Assembly: GCF_003473485.1 (NCBI RefSeq)
Contig: NC_053047.1
Location: 7,889,001 to 7,953,000, forward strand
DNA: 64,000 bases
Direction: 5' to 3'
DNA from: Medicago truncatula
Taxonomy: Eukaryota > Streptophyta > Magnoliopsida > Fabales > Fabaceae
The notes under the pieces are model-generated. The model searched no databases, was not told the DNA's origin, and was given only the letters and a program-made list of their open reading frames with translations. Position 1 is the stretch's first letter, and every line of letters starts with the position of its first letter. The translations under genes and the position numbers were made by a program. This document shows, in pieces, positions 3,136 through 58,184 of the stretch.

Positions 3136-6100
3136 ATGGAGGAGACAGCATGGAACTCTGAAACCTTTAAAATAGCATACACCGTGTTTGGATGGATAGC
3201 TTTTGTGGTTTGGTCTAGTAGTTTTTATCCTCAATTTATCTTGAATTATTCAAGGAAAAGGTATAATCACTTTTTGTTATCTTATTAATTATTTAAGTTT
3301 TTCTCTTGAAAGCAAGATTTTTTATGTGGAAAGTTGAAAATTGTAGTGTGGTGGGATTGAACTTCAACTATTTGATATTGAACAACACCAAACATACCTT
3401 GTACCTCATCTACAATGCTTCCTTGTACTTTAGCCCTAATGTTCGGTTTCAATATCATCAAAAATATGGATTTGATCAGGTTAATAATCATTTATTTCAT
3501 CAATTCATCACTTTTTTCTTCTTCTTCTTCTTTTCTTCCCTTTTCCTTTTATCTTATGTGTGTACTATTTTCCATGTTTCCAATTGATAAAAATTGAGGC
3601 CTAAAGTCATTTTAAATATATGGACTTAGCCTCTAAGGAGGATTGTGTAATTAATTACACCATGTAGTTACTAAACAAAAATTTACATTTTAGATTAATT
3701 TAATAAATGATATATGTGATTTATATTACAGACTTTTAAATATTTTTGCTTATAATATAGATCTGATATGTTTATTTTTATAATAACTCATTAACTAAGA
3801 TATGTACTATATTATTACTTAATAAATTAGTAGTAATTATGTGTCTATGAAAAAATAGAAGCATAGAAAGTATTAGTATTTTCAATTTAAGTACCATAAG
3901 TTAATTCAATTACTGCTTACAAAAATGTAATAAGAAAAAGAAAAGGATAAGTATTAAACATATTAGATATTTTTTTGTAAGACAATAAACATATTAGATA
4001 ACTTGTGGCCCACTCTTTTAACTCCGAAGAATCTATTTTTTTCTACCTAAAAAATCTTCTTGGCTATTTGCATTTATCATCTGTATGGGTTAAGAAATGA
4101 AACTTAGAGAGGAAAAAGTTAGAAGATGATTTAGATATTTGGTATAAGAGAAAATGAATAGAAAGAACGCCCGAATTCTTTATCAAACCATATAATCTTA
4201 TACTGTTGGATCTTGAGGGAAAGTGAGTTACACGCTATATTTTAACCCAAAATATTATAACATTGAGTTTATAAGTTCAACACTCATATTTTTATCCGAT
4301 ATAAAACTTCTACATAACCCTAGTTTGATTGAGTAAAATATGAGAGAAAAGATAAAAATATAGTGATAAATGATAGACACATATGATAAGAGTAATAATA
4401 ATAATTCAGTTACGTAGTTATTAGACTTTGTTCATGCTTAGTTAGTTGGTTGATACTCAATGAACTTTATCTTTAATTTAAAATGTGATGAAATAATAAG
4501 GGTGGCACTGAAAGAGAATTTTATTTTTATTTTGGTTTGTTTGTTTTAAAAATGAAATTTAGAAAAAAATGATAGAAAATAAAGTAAAATGAAATAAAAT
4601 AAGTTACAAATGAGAGGCTGTTTTTCTTGCGTGAAACTAATATCTCTACCTATAATCATAGGACTAATTTATCGATTCAAGTATAACCATAATGGATAAC
4701 AAAACTCTATCTCAAAATATTTATAAAATTTTAAAAACATAGGGATCCAAAATGTAAAATTCAAAAAAATAAATGGGAACTAACATGTCAATTTTTGAAA
4801 TGTGTAGTCACAAATTTGCATAATTTAAAAGAATTGAGAGTACTTCCTTTTTTCCACTGTCTAATTTAAATATTTTGGTTTCTTAATTTCTTTGGTATTG
4901 CAGATGATACCTGTAGCTGCAAATGACGTTGCCTTCTCAACACATGCTGTTTTGTTGACCTTAGCGTTATTGTTCCAAGTTGCAATTTATGAGGTATTGT
5001 TTCACATCAATATCAATTGTTGGATAGAAGTTTTTACCAAAAAATATTGTTTGGATTTATCATTATATACAAGTTGGACCGCTGAAAAAGACCTATGACA
5101 TAGTTTAAAAAAATCTCAAACACCACACTTTTTCATCTATCCATCCATTCAACATCTCATTTTATATCTTATATATATATATTTTTTTTTATCATTTCAT
5201 CAACATATCATATCATTTTCATTTTTTTCTTCTTCATTCCAAGTTTCCAACGTGTATACATATACATGGGATGTACACCACACAATTTCCTATTTTAATT
5301 TGCTAATAGTAATTGATATCCTTTTTATACTTATAGTTCAAAATAGAGTTAATTTATGTTTCCATCACATATCTTTTTATTTCTCTTGTGACGTCAAATA
5401 TAATTTCATTAATAAAAGTCTGGCAACAAATAAAAAATACAGAAGAAAAAAAAAGACACATGGAGTCTCTTCAATCCACGTATGATACTGATTATAAAGA
5501 ACATATTTACTTTAATAATAATGGAAGTTTGATTGGTCTTTTCTAACATATAAAAAATTTAAACTATACCAATAAATAATAATAGTAAAATTAATATAAT
5601 TCCCAAAAATAGAACTAACATAGGAGGAAGATTGCCGATGACCATTGAACGCCATAACCACATACGAAGCATTTGATTTGATTCTGCTATAAAATCTAAA
5701 AAGGCCGCATCTTTTGCAAATTTCAAACCCTTTGGCATATATTTTTTTTTTTATCAGGTAGCCTAGCGGCTAGAATCCACCTTATAAGGTGAATAAGTGG
5801 GGTGTCCGGGGTTCGAACTCATGTCATGCATATAATAACTGCATATATAGTTTATTCTTGAAAAAGATCTAAAATAATTAGAGGTATGTCACTAATAAAA
5901 TATTTAATGTAGTTCAAAATTCAAAAGGATGTTATAGAGTGATGATGGCTCACCTTAAGCATTCTAGACTTATGCATTGTTTTAGAAGAGCTAAAATCAT
6001 GATTTTACATTTAGCTTCTTTTTTTTTTTGTGCAGCGTGGGAATCAATCAATATCAAAAATCACAATGGGAATCATCACTGTGGTGTGGATTACTGTTGG

Positions 6101-8056
6101 AGTTTGTTCCTTCATAGCATTCCCTTCCAAATCTTGGCTTTGGCTAATTTCCATCTTTAAGTAAGATATTTTTACCCCCATAATCTTTTATTAAGAAAAA
6201 AATTGAGGAGATAAAATATTCTCTTGGTCAATTGATAAAATTAAAACTAGATGAAGAAAATAATATTTCAAATGTCATTTTTTATGTACGGTCTTAAGCA
6301 ATGTTTTCAAAAACAAACTAGATGGTTCAATCAGTTGAATTGAGGATCGGCCAATTTATCAGTTGACAACTACAATAGAGTCAAAGTCTTGTACAACTTG
6401 ATCGAATCGGCTTGAACTATGGTTGGTTTCACGTGTTCCTTTTTTTAAAATGTTTTTTAAATTCAAATTTATTTAATAGTCGTCCAATTTAACCGTGGTT
6501 GAACTAATTGAACTATGATATGAAAGTCTCATCTGTTTGATTTTCGATCCAGTGTGAAAATATTGGCCCTGTGATATGAAGGCTTTAGGTTTAGTGTTAT
6601 ATTCTATGTCATTGAAAATCAATATTTGGTTATATTTCAATTCATATTCTAACTATTGAAATAAATATTTTGTGCAGCACAATGCAAGTAGTTCTGGCAA
6701 CTATCAAATATATTCCACAGGTTAGAATTTCTTTCTTTCATTCTGACTCTCTAATGAGTGAAAACCAAACTTAAACCCTTGTAGGCCTCTTATTTAAAAT
6801 TTTACTAAAATCGAATAGAAATTCAAATAACTTTGTCAAAAAAATAAATTAGATCACACAAGCTATGTTGTAATATTACTATATTTGTTTTTTTAACCAG
6901 TGTTCTAAAGATATTTGTTAAAAAAATTCATGTAATACAGGCATTTATGAACTTCATGATCAAGAGCACAGATGGATTTAGCATTGGAAATGTGTTCCTT
7001 GATTTCTGTGGAGGAATGGCAAATTATGCTCAGATGGTTATACAATCAATTGATCAAAGTATGTCTTTATTTCCAAATTCACATTATATTAACATTCCAC
7101 ATGACTTAATGCATCAATGCATGTAATATAATAACATTTCTTCTCTTTTTTCATTCTAGACTCTTGGGTGAATTTCTCTGGGAACCTTGGAAAAGTATTG
7201 TTATCTCTGGTAAGAATTGGTCCCTTTACTCTTTCATTCATTTCAATTTTGATGAGTTGATATCTTCCTTTTTCATGTTTCTAATTCTTAACCTACAAAA
7301 TTTGTATTTGAATAGTGAATTTTCTAAGGACTTGCATCAAATTCCTTTGGAATTCAAAGAGCATACATGTTTGTTTAATGATCTTTTTTTTTGAAAGAGT
7401 CCTATATTGCATGAGAGATGACCTAGAGTGTTTATAAAATCGGGGTAATCCTCACCACAAAATTCGATTTTGTGGAATTGTGTTAGGTCAAACCTAAATT
7501 TTAAATTTTTTTTTCATTGGTAGTTACAAACACGAATGTGTCACTCATTTTTGTAAGTAAAATCATGTTTTACCATGTTGTCACAAGGTCAACAGTTTTA
7601 TAAAGTAATATTACAACACGATAAGATGGTAAATCATTACAAAAAAAAACTATGTATAGTGACTGATTTAACAACCGACTTAAAGATCGAAAATGTAAAT
7701 TAGTCGCTAACATTAGCGACTAGTTGTTTAGGAAATTTTTACAAATTGGTTTCTAAATCGATCACTAATTCATTAAGCGACAAATTTAGACACCAATGTA
7801 GGTTGAAAAATTGATTGCTTAATCGGTCATAAAGACAACATTTTTTTTAAGTTAAAATTACCTTAATTTTCTTACTTGTGTATATTGTAAACATTTTCAG
7901 GTTTGTATGTTCTTTGATCTTCTTTTCATGTGTCAACATTATGTGTTGTATCCATCAAAGAAAACATCATCAATTTCTCCTTCTAAACTCAATGACAAGA
8001 TCAAAGAGCCCCTCATCAAGTCTCCTTCAAATGTGCCTGTGGCTGAAAATGTTTGA
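3136..8056 (+). CDS. Cystinosin homologue, tandem copy A (lysosomal/vacuolar cystine-H+ carrier family)
   Basis: Eight exons: 3136-3260, 3347-3479, 4904-4993, 6036-6160, 6678-6720, 6941-7058, 7160-7209 and 7901-8056, all GT-AG, giving 279 residues. Family members are seven-helix PQ-loop carriers that export cystine from lysosomes or the plant vacuole by proton symport. Both PQ loops are present (SSSFYPQ in exon 1, KYIPQ at the end of exon 5). So are the family blocks [47 protein letters not shown] and [14 protein letters not shown]. The aspartates matching human D205, D305 and D346 by my alignment are kept. The tail (EPLIKSPSN) lacks the animal GYDQL sorting motif, as expected for plants. Start chosen as the first ATG after the AT-rich leader. 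Genes B and C downstream share every exon boundary and phase. Confidence 0.95.
5755..5825 (+). repeat. tRNA-related SINE-like fragment in intron 3 of cystinosin A
   Basis: A-box-like gtagcctagcggctagaat is followed about 45 bases on by the B-box-like ggttcgaactc, then AT-rich sequence. This is the internal pol III promoter layout of tRNA-derived SINE heads. It does not fold into a convincing tRNA. Confidence 0.45.
7640..7840. mobile_element. Probable MITE in intron 7 of cystinosin A
   Basis: A block rich in the words gcgac and gtcgc, centred on a short palindrome (tagtcgctaacattagcgacta, about 7697-7720) with further inverted gcgac/gtcgc motifs outside it. The layout is that of a small non-autonomous DNA transposon. 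I could not fix the ends or a target duplication. Confidence 0.4.
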
Positions 8057-8470
8057 ATTTGTAATTATGTTTGGTCACAATACATATTAATGTATATAAT
8101 TAGTCACCTGTATGATAATTAGTATGTACAGGCAAAGTTCCGTTGCAGCAAGGTGAGAGCAAATTGACAGTTGAGACACTAATAGAACCAAAATAATGTA
8201 ATGATCCGAAAAAAAAAACATATAGGAGATTGATACAACAAGATCATTCCACAAACTTAACTTTTTTAGTCTGTTAGTCTGAATTTCTAACTTGATTAGG
8301 ATATCTTCATTATACTATAAAAGTATGGATTATGGAATATAAATATAGGATCAAAGACATAAATGTTTCCTTAAACATATTGCATTCATATTTTCCATCA
8401 CTTCATCTAACATAACAACATACAACGAACTAAGGTAAGAAAAGAAAAATCAACAGATAAGTTCCAACAG

Positions 8471-8626
8471 CTATGAAGCACGGACACTCCTCGGATTAGG
8501 CGTGTTTCCGTAACACCGACACGACACCGATACATATAATTATGCTGAATTATATGATTTTCTCAAATTATTAGCAGTGTCCACGTGTCAGTGTCATGTG
8601 CCTGTGTCCGTATTCGTGTTTCATAG
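8471..8626. mobile_element. Palindromic (foldback) element, family 'CTATGAAGCAYG', copy 1
   Basis: Termini ctatgaagcacg and cgtgtttcatag are inverted repeats. Internally, cgacacgacaccgata pairs loosely with gtgtcagtgtcatgtg. Related copies are at 26000-26168 and 37490-37680, and an end-eroded copy at about 31010-31135. No ORF. It is best read as a MITE or foldback family. I found no convincing target duplication here. Confidence 0.7.
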
Positions 8627-8799
8627 TCCAAGAGTATTCACCAATCAGTTTTAAAGAAACAGTTTATCAAAGACATAAATCCCTCCCTAAACATATTGCA
8701 AATCTCATTTGCCTTAAATTCATCAACCAACCATAACAAAAAATTAAAACAAACGAAAGTAAATAAAACTTTCATCAAATAAGGTGCAAGTTATTCAGA

Positions 8800-9720
8800 G
8801 AATAGTTCACCTATGATTTACGGCTTAAACCTCATTGCACTACCCGATTTCCACACTGCATGTCACATCCACATTTCCTCCAGCACTCCTTTATAAACTT
8901 CCTAACCAGATGTCCCTTGCATGGTTCAGGTTTGGTCTCAATCTTAGTCGAATTCTGCTCTTCTCCTATCAAAAATTGCTCGTTCCCAACCAAACTTCTG
9001 AAAATACCGATGCGTGTGTTAACTTACGCTGGGGGTTCAGTGTGAATTTTCAACGTAAATTAAGTCATGTTGCATGAGTTAAGTCACGCTAAGCTTAAGA
9101 CATGCGTGACTTAACTCACGCCAGGGGAATTTTAGAAGTTTGATTGGGAGTGAGCAAATCTTGTTAGGAGAAGAGCAGAATTCAGGGCTAGTCCTCTCAA
9201 TTGGGCACTCTTTACAATACACATAATGATGATGCTGGGGTTTCTTTACCATAGACATGCAATCTGTTAAAAACTTTTCACTCAACAAACCTTGCGAATT
9301 GTAAGCAAACTCTCCACCAGTTTCTTGAGAGCATGCACAAAGGAACTAACAAGGATAAAGACAGTCGCCTGAACAATCGGAGCAGCAATCCTCATCCACA
9401 ATCCGAGCAAGTGAAATATTAACATTTGCACTTTGATACATTGTTTTACATGGAATGTAATTAAATTTTAGAATATCCTCACTGTTGGTTTCGTCTAATA
9501 ATGATATTTTAATGTTTTCCGAACCTTTTGTTATGTCTTCGACATATCAAAATGATTTCTTTTTATCCTCAGAAAGAGTTTGCCTTGACCCAAGGGTGAA
9601 GAAGAATCACTAAGAGAATTGATTCTTCGCTTAGCAAATTGTCTTGCCATCAATTTCTTGTTCTTTGATGATTCAGACATTCCCTGATCTTTCGAACTAC
9701 AAATGCAAAGAAAATATAGC
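8800..9720 (-). pseudogene. SUVR-type histone-lysine methyltransferase pseudogene fragment (pre-SET region)
   Basis: Reading the minus strand, about 9546-9195 gives blocks typical of plant SUVR proteins: DITKGSENIKISLLDE, FNYIPC, NISLARIVDED, CCSDCSGDCLYPC, CACSQETGGEFAYNSQGLL, FLTDCMSMVKKPQ and YCKECPIERT. After a foldback insertion (8950-9188) it resumes as KIETKPEPCKGHLVRKF, IKECWRKCGCDMQCGNRVVQ. This is the cysteine-rich pre-SET zinc cluster. It is interrupted by in-frame stops (after YPC, and at VVQ-stop where the family has R), and the catalytic SET domain is not recognisable downstream. An upstream piece (about 9560-9700, SSKDQGMSESSKNKKLMARQ) is preceded by an acceptor-like tttgcatttgtag, so part of the original exon structure may survive. 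It is non-functional as it stands. Confidence 0.8.
8950..9188. mobile_element. Foldback DNA element inserted in the SUVR pseudogene, 5-bp target duplication
   Basis: Arms of about 55 bases: left begins gaattctgctcttctcct, right ends aggagaagagcagaattc plus a few bases, and the pairing continues inward (cgtgtgttaacttacgc against gcgtgacttaactcacg). TAGTC flanks both sides (8945-8949 and 9189-9193). Removing the element and one TAGTC rejoins the host reading as CPIERTKIETKPEPCKGH, which matches the SUVR family, so the insertion site is certain. No coding capacity. Confidence 0.85.
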
Positions 9721-10250
9721 ATATACAAAACTTAGTTGCATGATGCATATACAAAAATTGGAGAAAATTCATATGATTTGTTTCCAAACAAATCAAAAGG
9801 AGAGTGAAACAATTCATATCAAACTTCGAAAAATGAGTTACTATGACCGATTATATACAAAGAATTCATGGCATCTGGCCTAACGATTTCAATATTTTTT
9901 TTTTGTTGAGCAATAACCTTTTTTTTCGGTTATCATGATATTGATACAAAGTTTCCACTACCGCTTAACAATAACTAATCTTTGTTAAAGAACTTGTGGG
10001 ACACACAAGACGAATTCTCTCCTTTGTTTTTCCATATGCATGAAACAATAATCGAACTTCTGACCACATGTTTAAGTGTTCTAATTAAGTCCTGCCACTT
10101 AGTCTGGTAGCCTAATGAAAGTGAAGTGTCTGTAGTTCAAACTTCAACCTTTACATATATTATGCATTGTCTCTTACTGATTGAGCTAGTCCATTGTTGG
10201 TAACTTACCTTTTTCTATTCACTACTAGAAGAAAAAAAAAATTAGCAACG

Positions 10251-10456
10251 AAAATTAACGAAGGAAAAAATAATAATTCACTCTTCACAAGATTCAGTGA
10301 CATAAAATTTTTCTTTGCTAATTTTAAGTTTTTTAGTAGTAATTTTTGTCATTACACGTATGTCGAAGATAGCCCAATTGAAAACATGTTTATATCGTGG
10401 CCGAATGAAAAGTACACTGTTTTTTTTTTTTTTTTGGCTCAAGATATCAAACATGT
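10251..10456 (+). repeat. Left copy of a ~210-bp direct repeat flanking a LINE fragment
   Basis: Shares ordered blocks with 11125-11341: taataattcactctt, tttttctttgcta, attacacgtatgtcgaag, cccaattgaaaaca, and gaatgaaaagt before a tract leading to tcaaacatg. The two copies differ by substitutions and small indels, so the duplication is not recent. It could be the residue of an element with long terminal repeats or a local host duplication. I cannot decide. Confidence 0.65.
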
Positions 10457-10468
10457 TTATATTGTGTA

Positions 10469-11104
10469 TTGCAGAAAGTTTCGGCCTCCCAATATAGTCT
10501 CTTTGCCAGTATCTTTGGAGCTCATGGAAGCGTCAAGCATATGTTGGAGGATTGGATGTTAGCACAAGATCTTCGCAGCAACGATAACACACATGGCACC
10601 ACTGTCGGATTAATGCCAACCATTCCCAACGGTATTCAATGGCGGCGTCCAGCTTCAGGCAGATTTAAATGTAATATTGACACATCCTTCTCTCACTCTT
10701 CTAATAAGTTAGGCATATGAATGTGCATTCGAGATTTCGAGGGTAATTTTGTACTCGCAAAATCTATGTGTTCAGTGGATGTGGGGGAAGCTCTAGGCCT
10801 CAACCATGCACTTCAATGAGTAGTTGACTTGCGGTTGGATGGTATGAATTTCTCTCTTGACTCGAAGGCTGTTGTTGATGCTTTTAATGGTGCAAGTAAT
10901 GATGATACTAATTTTGGCAGCATTATTATTCATTGTAGACAGCTATTTATTAATTATTTCCATAACTCGAAGGTAGAGTTTAGTCGTAGGCAAACAAATA
11001 GGATTGTCCATCAATTAGTTAAAGCGGCCATGTTGAAAGCTAGCTCTCTATTTGATGATGCACCGCCTTGTCTTGATGGCTTGTTCAATAATGAAATGAA
11101 TTAA
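10469..11104 (+). mobile_element. LINE (L1-like) remnant: RNase H-like domain
   Basis: One frame reads QWRRPASGRFKCNIDTSFSH, NKLGI-stop-MCIRDFEGNFVLAKS, DVGEALGLNHALQ-stop-VVDL, NFSLDSKAVVDAFN and ends at TAA 11102-11104. This is the RNase H-like C-terminal domain of plant non-LTR retrotransposons and related host proteins. The two in-frame stops both fall where the family has tryptophan (TGG to TGA). The reverse transcriptase upstream is absent. It lies between the two halves of the direct repeat 10251-10456 / 11125-11341 and directly upstream of cystinosin gene B. Confidence 0.75.
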
Positions 11105-11124
11105 TCTTTTTCCCCTAAAAAACA

Positions 11125-11341
11125 AAAATTAACTAAGGAAAAATAATAATTCACTCTTAACAAAATTTAGTGACAAACGGTTTTTCTTTGCTACTTTTAA
11201 CTAACTTTTCTTTGCTAAATTAAAGTTTCTTAGTAGTTATTTTGGTAATTACACGTATGTCGAAGGTAACCCAATTGAAAACATTTATATGTCGTGGCAG
11301 AATGAAAAGTTACACTGTTGGAAATGTATATCAAACATGTT
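11125..11341 (+). repeat. Right copy of the ~210-bp direct repeat flanking a LINE fragment
   Basis: Counterpart of 10251-10456 in the same orientation. It carries an extra internal duplication of ttttctttgct. It ends about 300 bases upstream of the cystinosin B start codon, so it borders that promoter. A shorter word, ggctattattagaacacat, occurs twice just downstream (about 11369 and 11441). Confidence 0.65.
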
Positions 11342-11641
11342 TTTTTGTGAATATAAGCGAATCTCACAAGGCTATTATTAGAACACATTCCTAAATTAAT
11401 TCTAACAGTAATTTTGTTGGCCAAAGATTTAAGAAATACTAGGCTATTATTAGAACACATGATACTCATGACTAGGGCAATATATGAGTGTACACACACT
11501 TTAAATAATTAAATAAATGAAAAATGTGTCACAATTAACCCTAACTTTCCTCATTTTGTGTGATTTTCAACCATAATTTGTTTCACTCATCATAACATAT
11601 ATAACACATCAATAGCTTTGGGTTTTGGTTAAAAAACTTCC

Positions 11642-14600
11642 ATGGCTTCTTGGAATTCAATTAAACTTCGTGTGACATATGAAGTTTTGGGTTGGTCTGC
11701 ATTTGTTTCTTGGTCTATTAGTTTCTACCCACAAATCATTTTGAATTTTCAAAGGAAAAGGTATGTACCATAAATAAATCATTTCCTTATACTATTGTAG
11801 CCAAATGTTAATTTGGATTCTTAGATTATGAGAGCATTACAAACATATTATATCTAACAATAAGATCTCGAACAATGTTCTTGAGTGATTGAATCTTTTT
11901 TTGAGAATTGATTCTTCTCTAATTTCACTAATGGAGGAAGATGAGGTGGATGTGGAGTACATGTGTAAGAACATTTTTTTTATACGACAATGAGATTTAT
12001 TAGGATCTTTTTATTCATAAAACCAACCATGTTAAATCTTTTCATTCATAAAACCAACAATGTTTGTTTTAAGGGAAAAATCAAACAATGTTAAATTCTA
12101 TATGAAGTGTTTTGTAAGTGCAACTTATATGGTAAAATGTTGTGGACGAGTGATGTAATAGGATGTATATTCCAACTCACAATATCCATTTTCTTATGAG
12201 TAAATTTTGTTGTTAGACTCTTTTAAATTAACCAATTCAAAGTAGAAAGTGTTTAACTGAATTTAAAGACATCAATACATTTATTGTAATATTTTAAAGG
12301 GTGCTGTTAACCAGTGCCATAAGAAATAATAAATAGGTAATAAATAAATGGATCTCAATTGATTTACCTAAATTAAAGTGCGATATAAATCAACTAATTA
12401 AAATAAGATATAGTTGTATTTATTGTTTGTTTTTGTAGCACTAACATCATCAATTTTGTAGCAGATAAAAACGATAAGTTAAAAAAAAAAACATAAAGAC
12501 AAGATGTAAAAAAAAGAACAATTTTTTTTTTTAATAATACCTAATAAATTGAACGTAGCGTAAAAAAAAAGATTGAATATTTTATTTTTTGAAAGAAAGA
12601 AAAAAAGAAAAAAGAAAGAAGATTGAATATGGTATTGATGATGGCAGAGAGATATTGAATATAACATTTATTAATTTTAATTAGTTGAAATATTTTACAC
12701 TTTAATTAAGGTAAACCAAGTGAGATCAATTTATTTATTGTTCCTTATCCAGTGCCTAGCATTTCCCTATTTTAAATTAACATGAATGTATTTTATTTTC
12801 TATAAAGAAAAAAATGAATTTATTTTCTTTACATTATCTATTTAGTGGTTTAATTATAAGAACTATGGGAGGAGCTATAATATTAATGTATGTACTTGTT
12901 TATCAAGTTCTTCAAATTTGTTTCATTATTATTATTAATTGATTTGGGTTTTGTTTTGATTAGTGTTGTAGGGTTGAACTTTGATTATGCAGTGCTAAAC
13001 ATGGTGAAGCAATGTTACTATTTGGTCTACAATACCACTCTTTACTTCAGCCCTGTCGTTCAGAGGCAATACGGGAATAAATATGGACACAAACAAGTAA
13101 TTTATTATACTATACTATATAAGAAGCATGTTTTTGGTTGTGTATTATATCATAATCATCATGATATTATGGGGTGTGACACACAATGAGCCTTTCTCAT
13201 GTTGGTCTCTCACATCCCACATACTTTTTCATTGTTACTATAATGCGGCATTTTATTAGAAGTTCGTGTTCAGTTGTGTATTTTATCATATTCGTCATGA
13301 TATTATGGGGTGTAACTCACAATGAGCCTTTCTCATGTTGGTCTCTCACATCCCACATACTATTTCATTATTACTATAATGCGGCATTTCATCCGAAGCT
13401 CGTGTTAAGTTGTGTATTTCATCAGATTCGTCATGATATTACGGGGTGTAACTCACGATGAGCCTTTCTCATGTTGGTCTCTCACATTCCACGAACTATT
13501 TCATTGTTAATATAATGCGGCATTTCATACGAAGCTCGTTTTTTCCCATGTTGATCTCTTATATCCCACATACTTTTTCATTGTTACTATAATACAATAT
13601 TTTATTATAAGCACGTTTTCAGTAGTGTATTTTATCAGAATCATCATGATTTTATTGGATATGACTCACAGTGAGCCTTTTCTCATGTTGGTCTCTCACA
13701 TCCCACGTACTTTTTCATTGTTACTTTTTTTTTCTTTAAGGTCAAGTTCATTGTTACTATTACTAACCTCAATTATCACTATGGAATATATGTTAATATT
13801 GTTAGATTTAATTCAAGTTAGTTTAGATGATTAGTGTTTTTAATCAAGGTTTGTTTGGTTAAAACATAAGATAATTAAGTTAGTTATTAGTTTGTTACAT
13901 TTTAGCTTGTTTTTAGCAACGTTAGTTAGGGCTTGTGAGATAGCTTGTCACGCAAACCAAGTAGCCAAGCATGTATATAACTATCATTGTATGTGTAATT
14001 CACAACTAATGAATTCACAATTTTACATACTTTAAACCTTCTCATTCTCACTTCTTCTTATTCTTTTTAAATTCCTAAAATCAAAATCCCTAGATTCATG
14101 AGAACCCTAGCTTGCATTGCAAGCAATTGATTGTTGCGCTAACAAATATTATGTGAGTGAACTAAACTTTTTTTTATTTTGATTTTTCAGATGAATCCTG
14201 TGGCATTGAATGATGTTGCATTCTCATCCCATGCTGTTCTACTTTCTGCAATTACCTTATACCAGATTGCAATTTATGAAGTACATATATATATTTTTCA
14301 ATACACTCACTATTATTCTTGTTTATAATTGATGATTGTTTGTACTAAAATCTGCAAATTTGACATGTAGCGTGGAAATCAAAAAGTGTCTAAGGCTGCT
14401 TTAGGACTCGCAATTTTCGTGTTGATAATTTCAGCAATTTGTGTCTTCATAGCTTTGCGTAATCGCCACTGGCTTTGGCTGATAAGCATCTTCAAGTATG
14501 TGTATTCTATGCTCATCTAGTTCTTTGATCAATGACAATAGTTATTTTAGTTTGTGGATTCTTAATTTGTTGTTTTTTGTATTCAGATTTTAGGCAAATT

Positions 14601-16587
14601 TCTCTCTTAATGGTCTTTGACCTTAAATTTCATGGATACATTAATTCAAGAGAAAAAGTCCTCAAGATTTTCCAAAATTGCAATGATCACCAATTTCATG
14701 AATAACATGTACATTTTATAATAATTTAGCTTCTCTAAACTCTAAGGTGATCTTGAACCATCCGATCTAGCGTAAGTGATTAATGTGCAAAGTGTGAGAG
14801 TGTTCTAAAGATCGGATTATGAAGTTTGATTCCTGCTATTAACAAGGGTCATGTCAATCGGTACTCCATGGACACCGACTAAGGATACCAATTGGAAGTT
14901 TAACTTTGTATGGATTGATTACACAATTTTCAATGCAATAACAACTATATACATTCCTTAGTAAAAAAAAACTATTATATAATATCCTTTTTTAGTATCC
15001 TGACTAGTGCCCCAAGAGCGTAAGTTAGCATTTCCCTATTAATAAAGTGGGTTTTTTTTTTTTTTTTTTTTTTGTGGTCAGGATTTGAATCCTAAATCTT
15101 GCATATATTACGCATTGTCCCTATCTTAATAAAGTGTAATCTTTCTTTTTATGATACTAATGCAAGTACTGTATAATTTATATATTTTTTTTCTATAAGG
15201 AATATACTTTTTATCTTTAATGGAATGTTGCTCTAGTTGTTTAATTATTATCTTTGTTAAATTTTATTTGAGCCTATTATCATCACTAGAGTTGTTACTT
15301 TACTATTGTTGCTCTTGTTTTAATCATGTTGAAATTGATCATGTTACAGTGTGGTCCAAGTTGCTTTGACAGTTATAAAATACATTCCTCAGGTGAGGGA
15401 TTTCTCCTAATTTACCTTATTTTCGATCAATTTATTTCATTTGTTCATATTAAAAGGCTTTAAATAAATTTATAAAAACATTAACTTATTATTACATAAT
15501 ATAAATTAATATTGATTTCAACATTTTTCAGTGGTTGGTCAAAAATGTATATTTTATTGGCCTAACTAGGACATTTTTAAATATTTAAACTTTTTTTTTA
15601 CCAACTATTTAAACTTGTATTATTGAAATTATTTAACTATTCATATTCAATTAATATATTTGTGTTTATAATTATAGGCAGTGTTTAACTTCATGAGAAA
15701 AAGTACCGAGGGATGGAGTATTGGTTTGGTTTTACTGGATTTTTTTGGAGGGGTAGCAAACTTTTTGCAAATGATTACACAATCAATTGATCAAGGTGTG
15801 TTATCTTCTTAATTCAATTACCAAGTTTATTTTATTTTATTTTTTACTTTAAACTTTGAACTATCATTTATTACATCTTTATTCATCAATAGGTTCTTGG
15901 AAGAATATATATGGGAATATAGGGAAAGTTCTTGTTGCAGTGGTATGAAATATTGATCTCTTATCTTCATATAATTTTTTTCTTTCCTATCCTTTTACAT
16001 TATTTATTTATTTATTTATTTATTTTATATGTCACATCCCCTTCCATTTCAACCTAAATACTTCTCTTCTCGTGAACTTAGTTCAGTTGGTATAAACAAT
16101 GCATAATGTATGTAAGTTTCGGGATTCAAACCCCAGTCACTACCAAAAAATCTGAACTAATCACAGAATTTTATGGACTAAGGGAGCTAAGTAATATTAT
16201 AGTAGGGCGTAAAATTATTTAATATTTTTATTTTTTATTTAAATTTTAATTGCAAAACTATAATATTATTTTTAATTCTTCATTTTTTTAGATATTTGTA
16301 TAGAACAAACAATATTTTTTTTTAGCAAGAACGATAATAATTTTTTACACAATGTACTTGGGTCATATATCGAGTTTTTTTAAAAAAAAAATTAATATAA
16401 TTTGTTTATGTTGATATATCATTGTTTTTGATCAAATATTTATTCATTGTAGATATCTATCATGTTTGACCTACTTTTCATGTTCCAACATTATTGCTTA
16501 TATCGTCACAAATCAGAGACACTTGTTGAACCTGCCAAGTCTCAAGATCAACAGTTATCAGAGAATGCTGCTTCAAATGCAGTTTAA
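11642..16587 (+). CDS. Cystinosin homologue, tandem copy B
   Basis: Eight exons: 11642-11760, 12964-13096, 14191-14280, 14371-14495, 15350-15392, 15678-15795, 15893-15942 and 16453-16587, all GT-AG with the same phases as copy A, giving 270 residues. PQ loops ISFYPQ and KYIPQ are intact, as are [10 protein letters not shown] and [10 protein letters not shown]. Differences from copies A and [16 protein letters not shown] has Leu where A, C and (as recalled) human cystinosin (N301) have Asn; exon 2 has [12 protein letters not shown] in place of the TKH block; exon 4 has [10 protein letters not shown]. The frame is intact throughout, so it is probably expressed, but substrate handling may differ. 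Intron 2 contains a 136-bp tandem array (13120-13735). The start is in good context (catggcttct) and aligns with the MxxWNS start of copies A and C. Confidence 0.94.
13120..13735 (+). repeat. 136-bp tandem repeat array in intron 2 of cystinosin B
   Basis: The phrase gtgtatttyatca recurs at 13140, 13276, 13412 and 13626. The first two steps are exactly 136 bases. The last step is 214 bases and contains a copy lacking about 58 bases. Each unit also carries atgagcctttctcatgttggtctctcacatccca (written here in two parts: atgagcctttctcatg, ttggtctctcacatccc) and ttactataatgcggcat. The array lies wholly inside the intron. Similarity between neighbouring units suggests unequal exchange rather than transposition. 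Confidence 0.9.
16070..16140 (+). repeat. tRNA-related SINE-like fragment in intron 7 of cystinosin B
   Basis: A-box-like cttagttcagttggtat and B-box-like gggattcaaaccccag are about 40 bases apart, with gcataatgtatg between. The same layout occurs at 24250-24312 and 56709-56790. No full tRNA fold. Confidence 0.45.
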
Positions 16588-17329
16588 TCCACAAATTATC
16601 TCTAGTTTAGATTTTAAACTAGAATGTTTAATCATAGAGCATAGGTGCTAGAAATTTTGAAAGGGATTTAATCTCTTTCCAAGAAATGTTCTCTATGATT
16701 TATTAGGTTCACTAGAATATTCACCACTTGTAAATATAATTATTTTTTCTAGCTAGCTACATTTGTATTGTTTCAAATCAAAATTTAAATTGAATGGTTA
16801 GGAGGATATGGTTTTTTGTTTCTATTTTTTGTTAGACATCTCTTTAAATTATTTTGAGACATCTTTAAAACATCCTTTTATGCTATGATGAAATATGATT
16901 AACGTCTTTGTGAAACTTCTATATGCAATGATTTTTTATGCTATTTGCATTGATAATGTCGTCGCAAATTCATCAAAATTGAGTCATTATCGATGGTTTT
17001 TTGTTGTTATCAACGAGGTTTTTGGCCATCAGCGACGGTGATTTTTATGGTACTGAAAGTTATGAGTTTTTGCTTTGCAAGAACATTTAGGATACTATGC
17101 TGAAATTTAAGTGATTGGTAATTCTGCATCAATTATGAATAAAAAAAATGTTTGATGTAAAAGACAGATAATATATATTTTTATATATTTTAAGATTTTG
17201 TGTAGAGATAGATTGTTTCAATCTTTTAATTGGTCCTGAAATATTAGTTTATTGTTGCTCCCCATCTTTATCTGGACTTGCAAGCATACTATGCCAAGAG
17301 ATTTGAAACTACAAAGTTTAACATGGTTT

Positions 17330-17470
17330 TAGGTTCATAAAAATTTTGAAATGGCTTTGATCTATGTTCGAAGAAAGTTCTCTATCATTTGCGAGCTTCG
17401 CTAGAATATTAAACCTTTGTAAATATAACTTTTTTTCTACCTACATTAGTTTTGTTGCATAATGGTATTG
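17330..17470 (+). pseudogene. Relic copy of the cystinosin B 3' UTR
   Basis: Matches the sequence after the gene B stop (about 16635-16780) in order: aaattttgaaa, ttctctatsattt, cactagaatatt (gctagaatatt here), acttgtaaatata and ctacattwgttttgt. No exon-like sequence lies immediately upstream, so only the 3' end of a former duplicate, or a short tandem copy of the UTR, remains. Confidence 0.6.
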
Positions 17471-17736
17471 GCGTAAAAGGCCAATCTATATTATCCTTAC
17501 GATGATTCAATAAGAAAGTCCATTTTAAATGGCCAAACAATGGAGAGATAATCAATGAACAATAAAAATCAAATCAAACCAAAATTATTGGATCTTTATT
17601 GGTTTAGGTCAAATTATGAGTCAATGGTGAGACATTGTCGAGAGTAATGACCACCTATAATAATGACCACATGCCTTCATTACATCCCAAAATTATTCAA
17701 GCTAGTTAGTTATATATGATTTTATGAGGTCGATAA

Positions 17737-18056
17737 TTTTTTTTATACGACAATGAGGTTTATTTGCATCCTTTCATTCATAAAACCAACAATGTTTTTT
17801 TAAGAGAAAAATCCAACAATGCTAAATTCAATATCAAGTGTTTTGTAAGTGCAACATATATGGTAAAATGTTACATACAAGAGAAGTAATAGGATGTATG
17901 TTCGATCTCACAATACCTATTTTCTCATGAGTAAATGTTGCTGTTAGACTCTTTTAAAGATATCAATACATTTATTGTTATATTTTAAATTAACGTGAAG
18001 TTATTTTCTTTACCTTATCTATTTAGTGGTTTAATTATAAGAACTATGGGAGGATC
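17737..18056 (+). pseudogene. Relic copy of cystinosin B intron 1, left part
   Basis: Collinear with gene B intron 1 (about 11978-12290, then 12775-12880): tatacgacaatgagrttta, ttcataaaaccaacaatg, agtgttttgtaagtgcaac, ggtaaaatgtt, gtaataggatgtat, gttagactctttt and tagtggtttaattataagaa. The relic lacks about 470 bases (about 12298-12771) present in gene B, so one copy gained or lost an insert after duplication. It is cut by the hAT element at 18057 and resumes at 19425. Confidence 0.8.
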
Positions 18057-19424
18057 CAGGGACGGATCCAAGAATTACAGAAAGTGGGGTCAAGATCGTT
18101 TATCATAAATATTTAAACAAAAATATATAAAATCATAACCATTAAAATGATGAAATCATTACCATTAAGCAAAATAGTGAAAATTACAAAAGGTATATGA
18201 CTATATCAAAAAACTAAAGACACGAAGAATTACAATTTCCCTCATCTTGACGTCATATTTTGAAAGCATTGCAAGATTTTTTCATTTTCAACACTATCAA
18301 ATATATCACTCTCATATGTTACCAAACAACCATTCAAAAACTCATCTCCCTTACGAAGAAAAGTCCCAAATGGTCGTTGCGGGAAATTATGTTCCTTTGG
18401 TTGACAAGGCCCTTTTGCTAAATAAGCTCTTCGAATTTCATCTCTATCATTTGGATGATAACATGACAATTGTTTCCTTTCTCTAGGATCAGCCGGAAGA
18501 TTTTCCAAATCAACCTCTAGAAATCCGTTTTTGAATGATGGCCCTGGTTGTTCATGTGTTGGTGTTGGTGTAGTTTCCACTTCATTAACTTCTTGAGACT
18601 CTGATGTTCTTTTGTAGTAACTTTCCATTTATAGCATATTCAAATAATATAACTAATTAATTACTTGATTCCAATACAAGCACAAGTGAGACATAATAAA
18701 AATTGGGGCAAAAATACTAAACCTAATAATACAGTATAAGTCAAAAATTGGGGAAAAAAATAAATCTCAATAATATAGTAGAACTAGAAGACAAAAATAA
18801 GAATAAAGGTAACAACTTACATGGGATTAATGTTTATTAACATAGCAACAACAACATAACATAATGTTTTTGCAACAATAGTGCTGTGGAACTGGAAGTG
18901 AATAGCTACTTATACTAGTGGTGTGGTGATGGTGTGGAATTGGAAGTGAATCGCTACAAAATAACAACAATAGTGGTGCGGTGTGGAACTGGAAGTGAAT
19001 CGCTCCAGCTAAGTAACGGAAGGATTTTGCAATTTTGCAAATTGTAATTGCACGCAGCACTTAACTTTTCATTCTTTTTTTGTTTGGTAAAATTATAAAA
19101 TACTACTGCTAGGCCAATCTGCACAATTACTTTTCATCTTCTAGTGAGTTTGTGACCACTAATTTTCTTTTAATATTTTTTTCAATATATAAAGTAAATG
19201 TAGTACTACTATTTTTAACAAATATAATATAATAGTTTATATTGTTTGTCTCAAGTGTATAAATTGAGTTATGTGTAAGCAACCTAAAAAATTAAAGTGG
19301 GGTTTTCTTAAAGAAGAATATTATAGTGGGGTCAAACATATAAAAATATGGTATTATTGGTTAAAAAAATTGACAAAGAGTGGGGTCAGCTGACCCCAAA
19401 ACCCTCTACTTGCATCCGTGCCTG
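18057..19424 (-). mobile_element. Deleted hAT transposon with 8-bp target duplication
   Basis: Terminal inverted repeats: left cagggacggatccaag, right reads (reverse complement) caggcacggatgcaag, both followed within 30 bases by tggggtca. Flanking 8-base duplications are ggaggatc (18049-18056) and ggaggagc (19425-19432), with one mismatch. The uninterrupted gene B intron 1 has ggaggagc at the same place, proving the empty site. The 1368-base element keeps only a 5' transposase piece on the minus strand (18628-18242, 128 residues, LPADPRERK...AYLAKGPCQPKEHNFPQRPFG). This is the N-terminal TTF-type zinc-finger region of plant hAT transposases. The DDE and dimerisation parts are missing, so it is non-autonomous. 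Confidence 0.92.
18242..18628 (-). CDS. Truncated hAT transposase N-terminus (TTF zinc-finger region)
   Basis: 128 residues starting MESYYKRTSES. A low-complexity leader is followed by the conserved NLPADPRERKQ, YHPNDRDEIRRAYLAKGPC and QPKEHNFPQRPFGTF segments found at the start of plant hAT proteins of the TTF/MYM-type zinc-finger class. After FLRKGDEF the sequence departs from the family and soon stops, because the body of the element is deleted. It cannot transpose DNA by itself. A short protein could still be made if the element is transcribed. Confidence 0.75.
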   Translation of the reverse strand: MESYYKRTSESQEVNEVETTPTPTHEQPGPSFKNGFLEVDLENLPADPRERKQLSCYHPNDRDEIRRAYLAKGPCQPKEHNFPQRPFGTFLRKGDEFLNGCLVTYESDIFDSVENEKILQCFQNMTSR

Positions 19425-19475
19425 GGAGGAGCTATAATATTAATGTATGTACTTGTTTATCAAGTTCTTCAAAAA
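19425..19475 (+). pseudogene. Relic copy of cystinosin B intron 1, right part
   Basis: Continues the relic beyond the hAT element with gctataatattaatgtatg and tacttgtttatcaagttct, identical over about 45 bases to gene B intron 1 (12872-12916). It stops before the exon 2 position: no sequence like exon 2 follows. Confidence 0.8.
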
Positions 19476-21115
19476 AAAAATTTGAAGAAACTAAAATGAA
19501 ATATATTACTGCAGCCTGTAAATTTCAGCACAAGTAGTGCAAAAACCCCAGCTGAAAGAGTATCAAATTACAACCTCATAACAAAGGGTAACAAAGTAAT
19601 AAGATCAAATGACAAAGGGTAACAAAGTAATCTGATCAAGTAGCCCGAAAACCTGATTTTTGATCAAGAACAGATAACAATGATCCAAAACAAAAGGATG
19701 ATAGTTAGGAAGATTAATATTGTCCATAAAATGACAATTCGTGTTACAAACATGTTTAGAATTTGTATTGATACAGTTCGAATTATATAATCTGAACTGT
19801 TTTTTCCTTGAAAAGGGGTGTTCAGATTATATATTTTGAAAAAATCCGAATTGGTGAAGAACTCATTTTTTCACCTATAACAAAGGAAAAACTGAATTCG
19901 GATTATGAAATCCTAATTGCTCAAGGGTATTTTCGAAAAAAAGTTAGGATGCACTAGTAAGGGATAGGGTAGAAAAAGTAATAGTCTCATCCTAAAGAAT
20001 AACCTTCAACAAAGTTTGCCTCACATAAGCCCAATTCTGAAGCCCACTAAATGAAGCATTAGTAGCATTCAAACTCCAGTTCAATTTCAACATCACGGTG
20101 TATCAAGATTAATTACAGAAATTAAAAAAAGAATATTTGATCTTAACTCTCTAGCTTCCATAAAAAATTTATTCAAAAAATAAAAAATGGATTTAATACT
20201 CTTTTGCTTGGTTTAGAGGTACACAAAATCTTATCAAAAATGATTTTAATTAAATTTCAACTGAATTCTGAATAATATGTTTATCTAGTATTTTTTTTTA
20301 CTAAGATTGATCTAAAGAAAAGGATTGTCTATAAGTAATAGTTAAGTTGGACGCCTTCATTTGGATTCGAATCCAAAATTTTATAGTGTGTATGAGTTTC
20401 AGTGGTCTTTACCACTTCGTCTATGGACAAAAATTTAAAGAAGAGAAATTTTTTAATAAAAATTTGACTTCAAACCTCTGAATTTACCCGCGATATGAAT
20501 TCTATTCATAGTTTTCATACCAATATTTTACAAAAAGAAAAACATTAAATAAGGAAAAGTATTATTGTTTTTTGAATAAATCAAGGAAAAGTTTTTTTTT
20601 TGAAGGAAAAGTATTTGGATATTAGCAACAAATAAATGAAAGAATGAATCAGGTTAGTTTCTTGGACCAAGTTCATGGAAACTAAAGTCCAACAAAATGA
20701 ACTAGTAAAGAAAAAAATCAACCAATAAAGTTTGAAAAAAAAAACACGTCAGCAGAGTATGTACGTGGAAGTTTAACAAGCTATATTCAAAGTTAATATT
20801 TTGGTCTATGTTTAAATTTCGGTTTTTTTTTTTTTTTTTTGACAAGGTTAAATTTCGGTTATTATTTAGACTTACATATCAGTATAGATTGAGTGTCAGT
20901 GTAACATTATTTTACATAAATTATGCAATAAAGAAAGATATGACGATAATATTATCATCAAATAAAGTGAAGGAGAAGAGAACTCAATTTATGTGTCAAC
21001 AAGTTTATAGACTCATTTATTATTGAGTTCAACAAGAAGGTTGTGAATAAAGTTATTTATTATTCACTATGTTAATTTAATCACACTTATTTCTTCCAAA
21101 ACATAGACAAAGAAA
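19476..21115. other. Intergenic region upstream of cystinosin C
   Basis: AT-rich, no credible gene on either strand. It holds homopolymer tracts (A runs near 19472, T runs near 20823), repeated words such as taacaaagtaat, and the presumptive promoter of copy C in its right part. Confidence 0.5.
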
Positions 21116-24024
21116 ATGGTTCCATGGAATTCATTTCCCTTACAAATAATCTATCAAATATTTGGTTGGTTAGCTTTTCTTTCATGGTCTCTTGCTGGCT
21201 ACCCTCAACTCATCTCAAATTTTCGTAGAAAAAGGTTAGTTAAATTTTTTTTTTTACATAATTTTTTTCATCTTTTCTTCTTCATGTTTTTACTAATTTT
21301 TATTTTTTCATTATTTTTCTTATGACTTTTTTCAGTGTGGTGGGGTTAAGCTTAGATTATACAATCTTGAACTTTACTAAACATTGGTCGTATCTCATAT
21401 ACAACGCTTCCCTCTTCTTTAGTCCAGTTATTCAGAAACAGTACTTTGAGAAATATGGTTATGGACAGGTATGTATATTCTTTTTTATATTCTGATTTTC
21501 AATTTTATGCAACAATGGAAAAAAGTATGATCATATTTGTGATGAAACTTGTGTATGTATTCAAGATTTTCAATAGTGGTCGCGATAACGGTTGCAGCCG
21601 CAATATATGATATTGTGGAAAACCGTGATCAAATACGGTTTACTAGCCTCAATCGCGGCTGCGTTGTGACTTCAGCAATCACAAAATTCATTAAGTTTCG
21701 GTATAAGATGCATACCTTTATTTGCAACACACTCTTTAAGACTCTTCTTAGCATACTATTTGGACGGTTGAAATTCAAATGGGTCCCATTAAAATATGAC
21801 TAAAATGTGAGTGTTTAGAAGAGTGTATTGCTGATACTCGTCGATAATAAAGGAATCAAAAAGATAGTTAATTTTTCTTATCAATAAAGGATGGTTATTG
21901 TTTTTGGTGAAATGAAGGATGCTCAACTATCTTTTGTTAATTGTAGATGATACCTGTGGCTGCTAATGATGTTGCTTTCTCCACTCATGCAGTTATAATC
22001 AATCTGATTGTAATATCTCAATTTGCAATCTATGGAGTAAGTACATATAATCAACTTGTTGAGTTCTTGATAATTCAAAGATGGTATTTGTTTTCATGTT
22101 TGAGTACACTTTGCTTCAGACCAAACGTCTGTTTTGAGGCGCGTTCAAACATGAAAGCAAAAACACTGAGAATCTGTTTGATTTCATACTTTTTAGATTG
22201 TTTATTCTACAAATTGATTTAAAAAAAAACCTCGATGATTTCAAAATTGTCATTGCGTAATTTTTTAAACTTTTCTTGTTTAACCGATTTTAAATCCTAA
22301 CATAAAATCTGCTTTTTTTTAACTAATATATCGTGAATACAACGTGCTAATTTTGTAATTAAAAGTGAAACTGAGAATAAAAATAGAAAATGTTTTCTCA
22401 AACCAAACAAGTCCTAATAATAGTAAATAAGTTGCTGATTTTTCTAAATTGCTTATGCAGCAAGGAACTCAGAAGTTATCCAAATATGTGATTGCAATAG
22501 TTGCTGTTGTATGGTTAAGTGCTGCTGTTTGTTTTTTCATAGCATTACCAACCCAATCTTGGCTTTGGCTAATCTCCATTTTCAAGCAAGTTTCTTTCTC
22601 ATTTAAAAGTTTGAACATTCAATTCATATACTTCAATTTTTCATCTCATATGTATGTAGTTAAGATTTTGTCTTTGTTTATGAATCATATTGCGTGATAA
22701 TATCAACTTATTTTGTATCCTGTTGGAATGAAAAATGTTAAAAATTTGTAATAATGTCGATTAAAAAGCTAGACCTAGAGATAGAAAATATGATTGATCC
22801 AATTACGAAGAATTTTAGTTATACGAACGTAGGGAAACTGAAGACTTGAAGGACAACCTAATGTTTTTTTTTTTATTGAATCTCGATGCATGCCTACAAA
22901 AAACTATGAACAATCTTTGATATATAAAACCTTAAAACTACCGTTGATTCATAAGAGTAAGAAACGAAAAAGTTGGAGTTATTCGGAAAAAAGTCGTAAA
23001 TGTGAGTCTCTTTTGTGATCTTTCAATGTTGACATGATCCTTAATTTTTCCTTTTATTTCATCAATTTGTAACAATTCTCTTATTTTGATATAATTGTTA
23101 TTATTGTAGCTTTGTTTTGTATGATTATTAGATTTTCATCTAATAATTTGTTGAAATTAATTATATTGCAGCTCAATTCAAGTCTGTATGACCCTCATCA
23201 AATATTGTCCCCAGGTTCTAATGTCTTACCTTATATGTTCATCTTCAAATTTTAATAAGCTACTATTAGTTTTCAGGCTAGTCCATGCTTAAAATTCATG
23301 TTGTGATTCTTAACTCACCAACCGAGCTACCTATCTCAGACAATAGAATCACTAGTTTTACATCGGTGTCTAATTTACACGGTCGATGAATCTCATTAAT
23401 TTCATTTTTTAAAGGTTTGAAATGTATTAACTTAATTAATCCCCTAATAATTTGTTGCTAAGTTATGGCTATTTTTGTTATGAAATATAGGCATTCATGA
23501 ATTTCTTGAGAAAGAGCACAGATGGATTTAGCATTGGCAATGTTCTCCTTGATTTTTCAGGAGGGATATTTAATTATTCACAAATGGTTGTACAATCCAT
23601 AGATCAAGGTTTGTGATTTTTACTGGCAAGTAAAATTAAATTAGACCATGCAATCAAATTATTTGACTAATAGTGTTGGTAGTTATGACTTATGAATTTC
23701 AACTTTTTTTATATTTAGATTCATTGGTGAATTTCTATGGAAACATAGGTAAAGTAATGATATCTTTGGTATGTAATCTTTTCTTTTACTCCACATCTTA
23801 GATGAAAAAAACATATTATTATTATTAAATTCCAAATGGTAATTAATTTTAATTTTTAATCACAATTGCAGGTAACTATATTCTATGATTCAATTTTAAT
23901 GTTTCAACATTATATACTATATTCTCACAAGAAAGTGTCAATTACTTCTGAAAATTCTGAAGAAATCCAGAAACCACTAATGTACTCAAGTTCATCAGAT
24001 CAACAAATCCATGATTCAGTGTGA
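21116..24024 (+). CDS. Cystinosin homologue, tandem copy C
   Basis: Eight exons: 21116-21234, 21336-21468, 21947-22036, 22461-22585, 23172-23214, 23491-23608, 23719-23768 and 23872-24024, giving 276 residues. Phases are identical to copies A and B. Intron 4 has a GC donor (ttcaa|gcaagt), the rare GC-AG class; only this donor preserves the SIFN/SIQV join. PQ loops are LAGYPQ and [30 protein letters not shown] and [13 protein letters not shown]... ([11 protein letters not shown]) show the carrier core; the last TM has Tyr-Asp in place of Phe-Asp, with the aspartate kept. Introns are the shortest of the three copies. The start [15 protein letters not shown] is the closest of the three to the recalled Arabidopsis cystinosin N-terminus (MASWNSFPLEITYEV). 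Confidence 0.95.
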
Positions 24025-25999: not shown

Positions 26000-26168
26000 C
26001 TATGAAGCATGAACACGGACACCAGACACGACACGACACTGACACGCTGATACATCAAATAATTTGTGAAAATCACAAAATTGAGTGTAATTATATGTGT
26101 CAGTGTCGGACACGACACGTACCCGATACCAGGACACGCCTGCCCTGAGAAGTGTCCGTGTTTCATAG
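26000..26168. mobile_element. Palindromic (foldback) element, family 'CTATGAAGCAYG', copy 2
   Basis: Ends ctatgaagcatgaacacgg and ccgtgtttcatag; inner arms cacgacacgacactgacac and gtgtcagtgtcggacacgac. The left end touches a 24-base near-palindrome (25978-26001, agctcgttagg / cctaacgagct). It lies in the inferred leader intron of the FRS gene. Confidence 0.75.
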
Positions 26169-26568: not shown

Positions 26569-27424
26569 AAACTATTAGCTGCATTCAATGTTTAGATTGT
26601 GACCACATTGTGATTCTTAATATGGTGCAAAATCGCTGTGGCCACAATGCAGTTGCTGGGATATAAAAAACCCCGATACTTCGGCTTCCACAATCTTTGT
26701 CGCGTTGAGATCGGAAAATCATAGAAGATTTTGTGGCCACAATTGTGGTTGCAGAGATAGACAAAACTTTGATGCTGCAGCCACAATTGTTGTCGACATT
26801 TTTAAAGCCTTGGCTGCATTTGTTCAGTCACAACAACCGTAACTGCAATTTTTGAAATGAACTTGTTGAATTTTGGCAGCAGTCACAGCACTACTACTAT
26901 ATAATGTGTAATGGTCCAGTTTCTATTAGCTTCTATTTATGGGACTTTCTCAATTGAAATAAGTTTATAGTTCTTCTTAAATCTCAATTAAAATACACGT
27001 ATATATGTTTATGGAGAGTTGAAGAATAAGTTTTAGAGCGGTGTTTATGGACATGCCTGTTCAATTGCTGTGCAAATAACACGTCAAAAGTTACAAGTCA
27101 TAACTATAACACAAACTGTTTTTCCTGTTTTCTATTATTATCCATTTTGATACAATTTACATTATTTCTCTCATTCGTATTCTGCAATAGAGATATAGTG
27201 TGTGCTTCTTTTTTATAAAATTAGCCATCATTGTATTTTGATCAAATCCTTTAAGCATTGTATTTATCGCCAAATGTCTTCTGTCACCATTGTATTTTGC
27301 CCTCTAACTTGTTTTCCTTTTCGTGTATTTAGATCACAAGTCCACGGAGTATACCGAACCTGATATAACAAGGCAGTCCTAGGAAAATTATGCAAAAAAT
27401 GAATGTCTAATATCACTTCGGATA

Positions 27425-58150: not shown

Positions 58151-58184
58151 CTTCTCATTCTCTGAACTAAATCTTCTCTTTTTC

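Follow-up and report, generated by a model that had tools for sequence, protein, structure and literature searches.

When several similar transporter genes lie side by side in a plant genome, it may be asked what family they belong to, whether every member still works, whether they arose by a simple local amplification and whether they divide a task between them. These questions are raised by region 3136-24024 of a 64,000-nucleotide stretch of the Medicago truncatula genome (contig NC_053047.1, here C6, positions 7889001-7953000, within a 430-Mb genome of 42 contigs), referred to below as the window, in which three genes of the cystinosin type are arranged head to tail, all on the + strand. 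They are designated copies A, B and C. Taking the explanation developed here as a whole, it is probable that the three encode members of the plant cystinosin family, i.e. seven-helix PQ-loop transporters.

Gene structure and family assignment

The gene models were assembled from splice sites and translated, with the following result (aa, amino acids).

3136-8056, + strand: cystinosin copy A, 8 exons, 279 aa; spliced translation without stops, all introns GT-AG
3136-3260, 3347-3479, 4904-4993, 6036-6160, 6678-6720, 6941-7058, 7160-7209, 7901-8056, + strand: exons of copy A
11642-16587, + strand: cystinosin copy B, 8 exons, 270 aa; open spliced frame
11642-11760, 12964-13096, 14191-14280, 14371-14495, 15350-15392, 15678-15795, 15893-15942, 16453-16587, + strand: exons of copy B
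21116-24024, + strand: cystinosin copy C, 8 exons, 276 aa; open spliced frame with a GC donor
21116-21234, 21336-21468, 21947-22036, 22461-22585, 23172-23214, 23491-23608, 23719-23768, 23872-24024, + strand: exons of copy C
22583..22591, + strand: donor site of intron 4 in copy C, non-canonical (GC), CAA/GCAAGT, cut 22585/22586; conserved exon length and open frame

The six internal exons measure 133, 90, 125, 43, 118 and 50 nt in all three copies and the intron phases likewise match. GT-AG borders are found in 20 of the 21 introns, the exception being intron 4 of copy C, where exon 4 has the conserved length of 125 nt only if the GC donor is used. Splicing at the GT nearest to the end of this exon (22590) would lengthen it by 4 nt and put it out of frame, and a scan of 22465-23165 with the same acceptor found six other GT donors that keep the frame at the price of losing 24 to 37 or gaining 22 to 36 residues. 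These alternatives were judged unlikely, since each removes or adds 22-37 residues in mid-protein, and as no GT donor yields the same exon 4, the normal form of C needs the GC donor.

Each of the three proteins contains two PQ-loop stretches (PF04193; E 2e-26 to 8.5e-30), with whole-protein scores of 92-103 bits against a cut-off of 22. Copy A aligned with the Arabidopsis cystinosin chain 7zk1_A from residue 5 to 278 with gaps confined to the tail (E 4.9e-108), the next match being human cystinosin (E 2.3e-54), so that the likeness goes well beyond what chance would give. The lysosomal cystine transporter model TIGR00951 (TC 2.A.43), which has a curated cut-off of 192.35 bits, was passed by B (225.1 bits), whilst A (186.1) and C (191.3) fell slightly below it with near full-length alignments and no other family listed for either. 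The Arabidopsis protein (246.9) and the two further M. truncatula genes described in the next section, D (227.7) and E (228.4), served as controls and all pass. On alignment and residues A and C thus appear to be cystinosin members, yet drifted ones.

Copy number in the genome

Protein searches of the genome were made with A and E as queries and all 33 and 37 first-look candidates, respectively, were scored, the resulting counts being lower bounds. There are at least five apparently intact eight-exon cystinosin genes, of which two, oriented tail to tail, lie on contig C7.

C7 18228105-18231912, + strand: cystinosin D, eight exons, open frame
C7 18234044-18237919, - strand: cystinosin E, eight exons, open frame
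C5 near 44.766 Mb (stretch L031, 2778-3055): D-like truncated processed pseudogene; no introns between exons 1, 2 and the beginning of 3, frame breaks

The C5 sequence matches the initial 279 coding bases of D at 76% and spans the sites of introns 1 and 2; its intronless fusion and broken frame are what mark it as a truncated processed pseudogene. Other PQ-loop genes positive for PF04193 occur on C1, C5, C7, C8 and at other sites on C6, but differ from the cystinosin genes in that their match to queries A and E is weak (best E 4e-4) or absent.

Tandem arrays of old paralogues are frequent in plants, and the present cluster is an ordinary, somewhat enlarged case of gene duplication, i.e. a routine family expansion. 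Genes named PQL3 are presumed here to be cystinosin genes. A published PQ-loop tree, in the portion of the paper available, names one M. truncatula PQL3 (MtPQL3, beside AtPQL3) and three tomato PQL3 genes (PMC7876507), so that the five genes counted here exceed the single MtPQL3 named there. The cluster was not found described in the literature on cystinosin (Medicago, nodules, the tonoplast, Arabidopsis homologues and structures), a survey that had most subscription papers and supplements outside its scope.

Selection on the copies

An important consideration in deciding whether such copies function is whether their proteins have been conserved. The codon model used for this purpose comprised 243 core codons of the five genes A-E, the C-terminal tail being excluded, and all 15 trees were evaluated. 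A single ratio of nonsynonymous to synonymous substitution (dN/dS, or omega) over the tree was 0.17, and when single branches were given their own ratio the values were 0.16 for A (p 1.3e-7), 0.20 for B (p 5.4e-8) and 0.24 for C (p 4.7e-4), each p being against an omega of 1. A free model with branch-specific omegas fitted no better (p 0.51), nor did the omega of A, B and C differ significantly from that of the rest of the tree (p 0.20), and thus no copy, taken whole, shows a significant sign of positive selection or of relaxed constraint. Purifying selection is shown for each of A, B and C, which on these codon comparisons look functional. Chance similarity or an origin as pseudogenes is ruled out for A and B by their open frames and by omega values below 1; for C the same exclusion depends on the GC donor.

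An earlier note on this DNA had described three head-to-tail cystinosin homologues, intact and divergent, that share eight exons and their intron phases. The gene models, the PF04193 matches and the match to Arabidopsis cystinosin bear out the homology and order of the genes, and the shared structure holds with one correction, namely the GC donor that closes exon 4 of C. The copies are indeed divergent, with open frames (in C given its GC donor), and each rejects neutral evolution. As a count for the genome, three was incomplete, there being two more genes on C7 and a pseudogene on C5.

Residues of the transport cycle

Fifteen positions concerned with cystine contact, proton coupling and gating were mapped from the available part of the paper on the Arabidopsis structure (PMC9385667). 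Thirteen of these are identical in A-E and Arabidopsis, the proportion for the core as a whole being 98 of 241 columns (P 2e-4), namely Trp24, Pro30, Gln31, Lys55, Asp92, Lys166, Tyr167, Pro169, Gln170, Asp191, Gln201, Lys221 and Asp232. The invariant set includes the residues that form salt bridges with cystine (Lys55 in plant numbering, Lys166 and Asp191), the luminal gate (Asp92, Gln201 and Lys221) and Asp232, the partner of Asp191. The Arabidopsis residue is retained at all 15 positions by D and E and at 14 by each of the window copies, in which a secondary cystine contact is altered: Ser228Cys in A, Ser228Thr in C and His56Gln in B (Arabidopsis numbering), D and E retaining both contacts. 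Neither His56 nor Ser228 defines the family, the human protein having Phe at 56. In the sections of the structure paper that deal with these residues, Ser228Ala lost about half of binding and transport, His56Ala retained ~20% and His56Phe ~50% with no transport at pH 6.5, whilst the substitutions carried by A, B and C at 56 and 228 are not mentioned there (PMC9385667).

Compared with known systems, the three copies resemble the Arabidopsis thaliana cystinosin (7ZK1, 7ZKW, 7ZKZ; PMC9385667, as far as its available text goes) at 14 of the 15 mapped sites apiece and differ from it at 228 (A and C), at 56 (B) and in the tails. Human cystinosin, CTNS (8DKE and others), is 40.8-44.6% identical to A-C over 240 residues, and both PQ motifs and the equivalents of human Asp205, Lys280, Asp305, Lys335 and Asp346 are retained in A-C. 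The human protein differs in having Gly at plant Lys55 and Phe at plant His56 and in an N-terminal part that has no counterpart in A, the match to A beginning at human residue 120. Copy C carries 15 changes unique among the six plant sequences, human agreeing with the other plants at 8 of the 15, and these include Phe28Gly, two residues before Pro30 in the first PQ motif, and Ile168Cys, immediately preceding Pro169 in the second. Of the five copies, A alone keeps the tail segment EPLI of the Arabidopsis protein; C has KPLM instead, and B, D and E lack the segment; that it plays a role in sorting is a guess.

Proposed function

The available part of the Arabidopsis structure paper presents a vacuolar membrane protein that uses the proton gradient to export cystine into the cytosol (PMC9385667), and for A, B and C we infer substrate, membrane and direction of transport from this model. 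With Asp92 protonated the protein would open toward the acidic vacuole; cystine would then be bound between Lys55, Lys166 and Asp191; the luminal gate would be shut through Asp92 and Lys221; and cystine and a proton would be released into the cytosol (model of PMC9385667, from the same part of the text). The residues named for this cycle are all present in A, B and C. With one secondary ligand contact changed in each, the window copies are likely to share one substrate while being altered in affinity, rate or pH optimum, and they are probably expressed differently, which would provide for a division of labour. Proton-coupled vacuolar cystine export with tuned kinetics is therefore what is expected of A, B and C from their sequences. 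Specialised transport, as the earlier note had proposed, is only weakly indicated, since no essential residue has changed and such differences as exist at the 15 mapped sites fall on secondary ligand contacts only.

History of the copies and alternative explanations

In pairwise alignment the proteins are 56.7% (A/B), 58.5% (A/C) and 55.5% (B/C) identical, the corresponding figures from the multiple alignment being 58.1, 58.9 and 55.1%. Identity to Arabidopsis cystinosin is 61.1% for A, 62.2% for B, 63.8% for C, 71.2% for D and 69.7% for E, and that of A, B and C to D and E is 58.7-64.4%, so the three window copies are not closer to one another than to Arabidopsis cystinosin, D or E. The best codon tree was ((A,C),(B,D),E), with a support of 0.84 by resampling of estimated log-likelihoods (RELL). 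The window copies have terminal branches about twice as long as those of the C7 pair (with one omega, A 0.91, B 1.05 and C 0.79, D 0.46 and E 0.43). When omegas are free, the excess is clear in dN (0.14, 0.17 and 0.13 for A, B and C versus 0.06 and 0.07 for D and E) and less clear in dS (0.77, 0.82 and 0.50 versus 0.60 and 0.34). The codon tree favours A+C and B+D and the array is thus probably not a simple triplication. The history that it suggests, and that is judged likely though well short of certain, begins with an early division of the family into two types, A/C/E and B/D, both present on two chromosomes, the A/C/E type having gained one additional copy on the chromosome of C6. A, B and C would then be old paralogues, maintained by purifying selection, in a family that numbers five genes or more.

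A number of observations weigh against the explanation of the cluster as a set of intact transporters with this two-type history. For copy C to be intact in its normal form, splicing has to use the GC donor, and the sub-threshold TIGR00951 scores of A and C could mean that both have moved away from what is usual in cystine transporters. Protein trees that included Arabidopsis, whether or not human was added, did not settle the order of the copies and did not reject a group A+B+C (approximately unbiased test, p-AU 0.23 with human and 0.34 without). The counts of codons fixed two against three are 0 (B+D), 6 (D+E) and 8 (A+C); those of codons common to a pair only are 17, 27 and 24, respectively. 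A single codon supplies 4.2 of the 11.8 units of log-likelihood (lnL), the codons with a lean above 0.2 lnL divide into 33 for and 37 against, exons 3 and 8 both lean against the preferred grouping and estimates of dS near 1 imply near-saturation, for which reason dating by dS was set aside. Alternatively, A, B and C might have arisen from a single C6 gene through unequal crossing-over, followed by fast divergence, with the C7 pair as a separate, slower lineage; the adjacent, head-to-tail arrangement suits such a local triplication, as do the protein trees and the raw codon counts, in which D+E exceeds B+D. Against it stand the codon tree, in which resampling of sites supports A+C at 0.91 and B+D at 0.92, compared with 0.08 for D+E; simulation under the best tree containing D+E, in which none of 400 replicates reached the observed lnL gap of 11.77 and the maximum was 2.44 (kappa and omega fixed); and the short C-terminal tail common to B and D, which from HY onward has 32 residues in both but 39 in A, 38 in C and 39 in E (35 in Arabidopsis, where the stretch possibly ends short). 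A local triplication is accordingly regarded as unlikely, if with an appreciable chance, and the triplication proposed in the earlier note is probably wrong, though the protein trees do not reject A+B+C. A search for neighbours shared between C6 and C7, comparing 9 kb and 10 kb flanking D/E with the window and 90 kb upstream, returned cystinosin exons and a few other short matches, which is too little sequence to judge a block duplication.

The same data bear on two further explanations. At least one of the window copies might have switched substrate and now carry, e.g., a mixed disulfide or a different amino acid, as the earlier note hinted, and the alteration of a ligand-contact site in each of A, B and C whilst D and E keep 15 of 15, the position of A and C beneath the TIGR00951 cut-off and the 15 unique changes of C, Phe28Gly and Ile168Cys among them, could be read in this way. 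Such neofunctionalisation is distinctly unlikely, however, as the residues that form salt bridges with the two carboxylates and one amino group have all been retained, the altered sites are supporting ones on the evidence of the alanine substitutions in the available sections (PMC9385667) and omega does not differ significantly among branches. The array might otherwise be redundant dosage kept by chance, or contain a copy in decay, C being the candidate with its GC donor and nominally the highest omega of the window copies (a difference that is not significant); the debris of a partial duplicate between B and C (see below) also fits this possibility. It is nonetheless decidedly improbable, for A, B and C have open frames despite long divergence (dS of at least 0.5 per terminal branch) and an omega of 1 is rejected for each.

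Turnover within the array and neighbouring features

The interval between B and C contains the following features.

17299..17459, + strand: partial-duplicate debris, copy of the B 3' flank; matches 16609-16775, 77% identical (self blastn)
17736..18054, + strand: partial-duplicate debris, pieces of B intron 1 from within 11973-12873, 88-97% identical
18057..19424, strand not assigned: 1368-bp hAT-like DNA element, its terminal inverted repeats lying at 18057-18072 and 19409-19424; splits the intron-1 debris
19423..19473, + strand: continuation of the intron-1 copy, equal to 12866-12916 of B, 100% over 51 nt

The last piece is separated from the other intron-1 debris by the insertion and its first two bases are common with the end of the element. 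A repeat of 8 bases borders the element, which we take to be of the hAT type, reading GGAGGATC on one side and GGAGGAGC on the other, with agreement at 7 positions, and intron 1 of B carries GGAGGAGC. The ends of the element were spotted by eye, and a pattern built from both ends matches these 2 places and no others in the window; a 128-codon frame on its minus strand (18245-18628) has no Pfam match. The order of the debris (3' flank of B, then intron 1) points to one deletion or more in addition to the duplication. From this debris and its splitting by the element, it appears that the array kept rearranging while A, B and C retained their frames. A six-frame search with A, B and C for exon relics of a fourth cystinosin gene in the A-B and B-C gaps gave nothing significant (lowest E 0.09), the debris consisting solely of 3' flank and intron 1 of B.

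Repeats are present elsewhere in the cluster. In intron 2 of copy B a unit of ~136 bp is present four to five times in tandem (13103-13725; one spacing is 77), and 3' of copy A, at 8350-8789 and 8950-9183, there is a tandem-repeated stretch (71%) and an 80-bp inverted repeat, part of the 8350-8789 repeat recurring as a reverse copy at 26000-26108. Between A and B, frames at 10409-11104 resemble by eye a retroelement RNase H fragment, bracketed by an imperfect direct repeat (10247-10421 and 11121-11319, 78%).

Further genes were noted on either side of the cluster.

About 1034-1781, upstream of the cluster: two-exon gene, phytocyanin-like (early-nodulin-like) by eye
27383-29731: single open frame with two FAR1 stretches and MULE and SWIM domains, a FAR1-type gene
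52146-53948 and 57963-60161: tandem ubiquitin carboxyl-terminal hydrolase genes, both PF00443
62792-64000: third hydrolase-like frame (likeness by eye), running to the window end

Implications for vacuolar cystine export

The late-nodulin peptide family PF07127 marks the inverted-repeat-lacking legumes, and its genes are very numerous in this genome, with at least 159 matches when 150 of 1198 candidates were scored. It is conceivable, if highly improbable, that in a legume rich in nodule cysteine-rich peptides cystinosins expanded to five functional genes, three of them faster-evolving tandem copies with pockets tuned residue by residue, which recycle cystine from peptide breakdown in the vacuole or symbiosome. 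Irrespective of that setting, if tissue, affinity or pH optimum is not the same for all copies, A, B and C would constitute a natural set of variants at residues 56 and 228, both of them highlighted by the Arabidopsis structure, and M. truncatula would be a plant in which vacuolar cystine export is shared out among genes.

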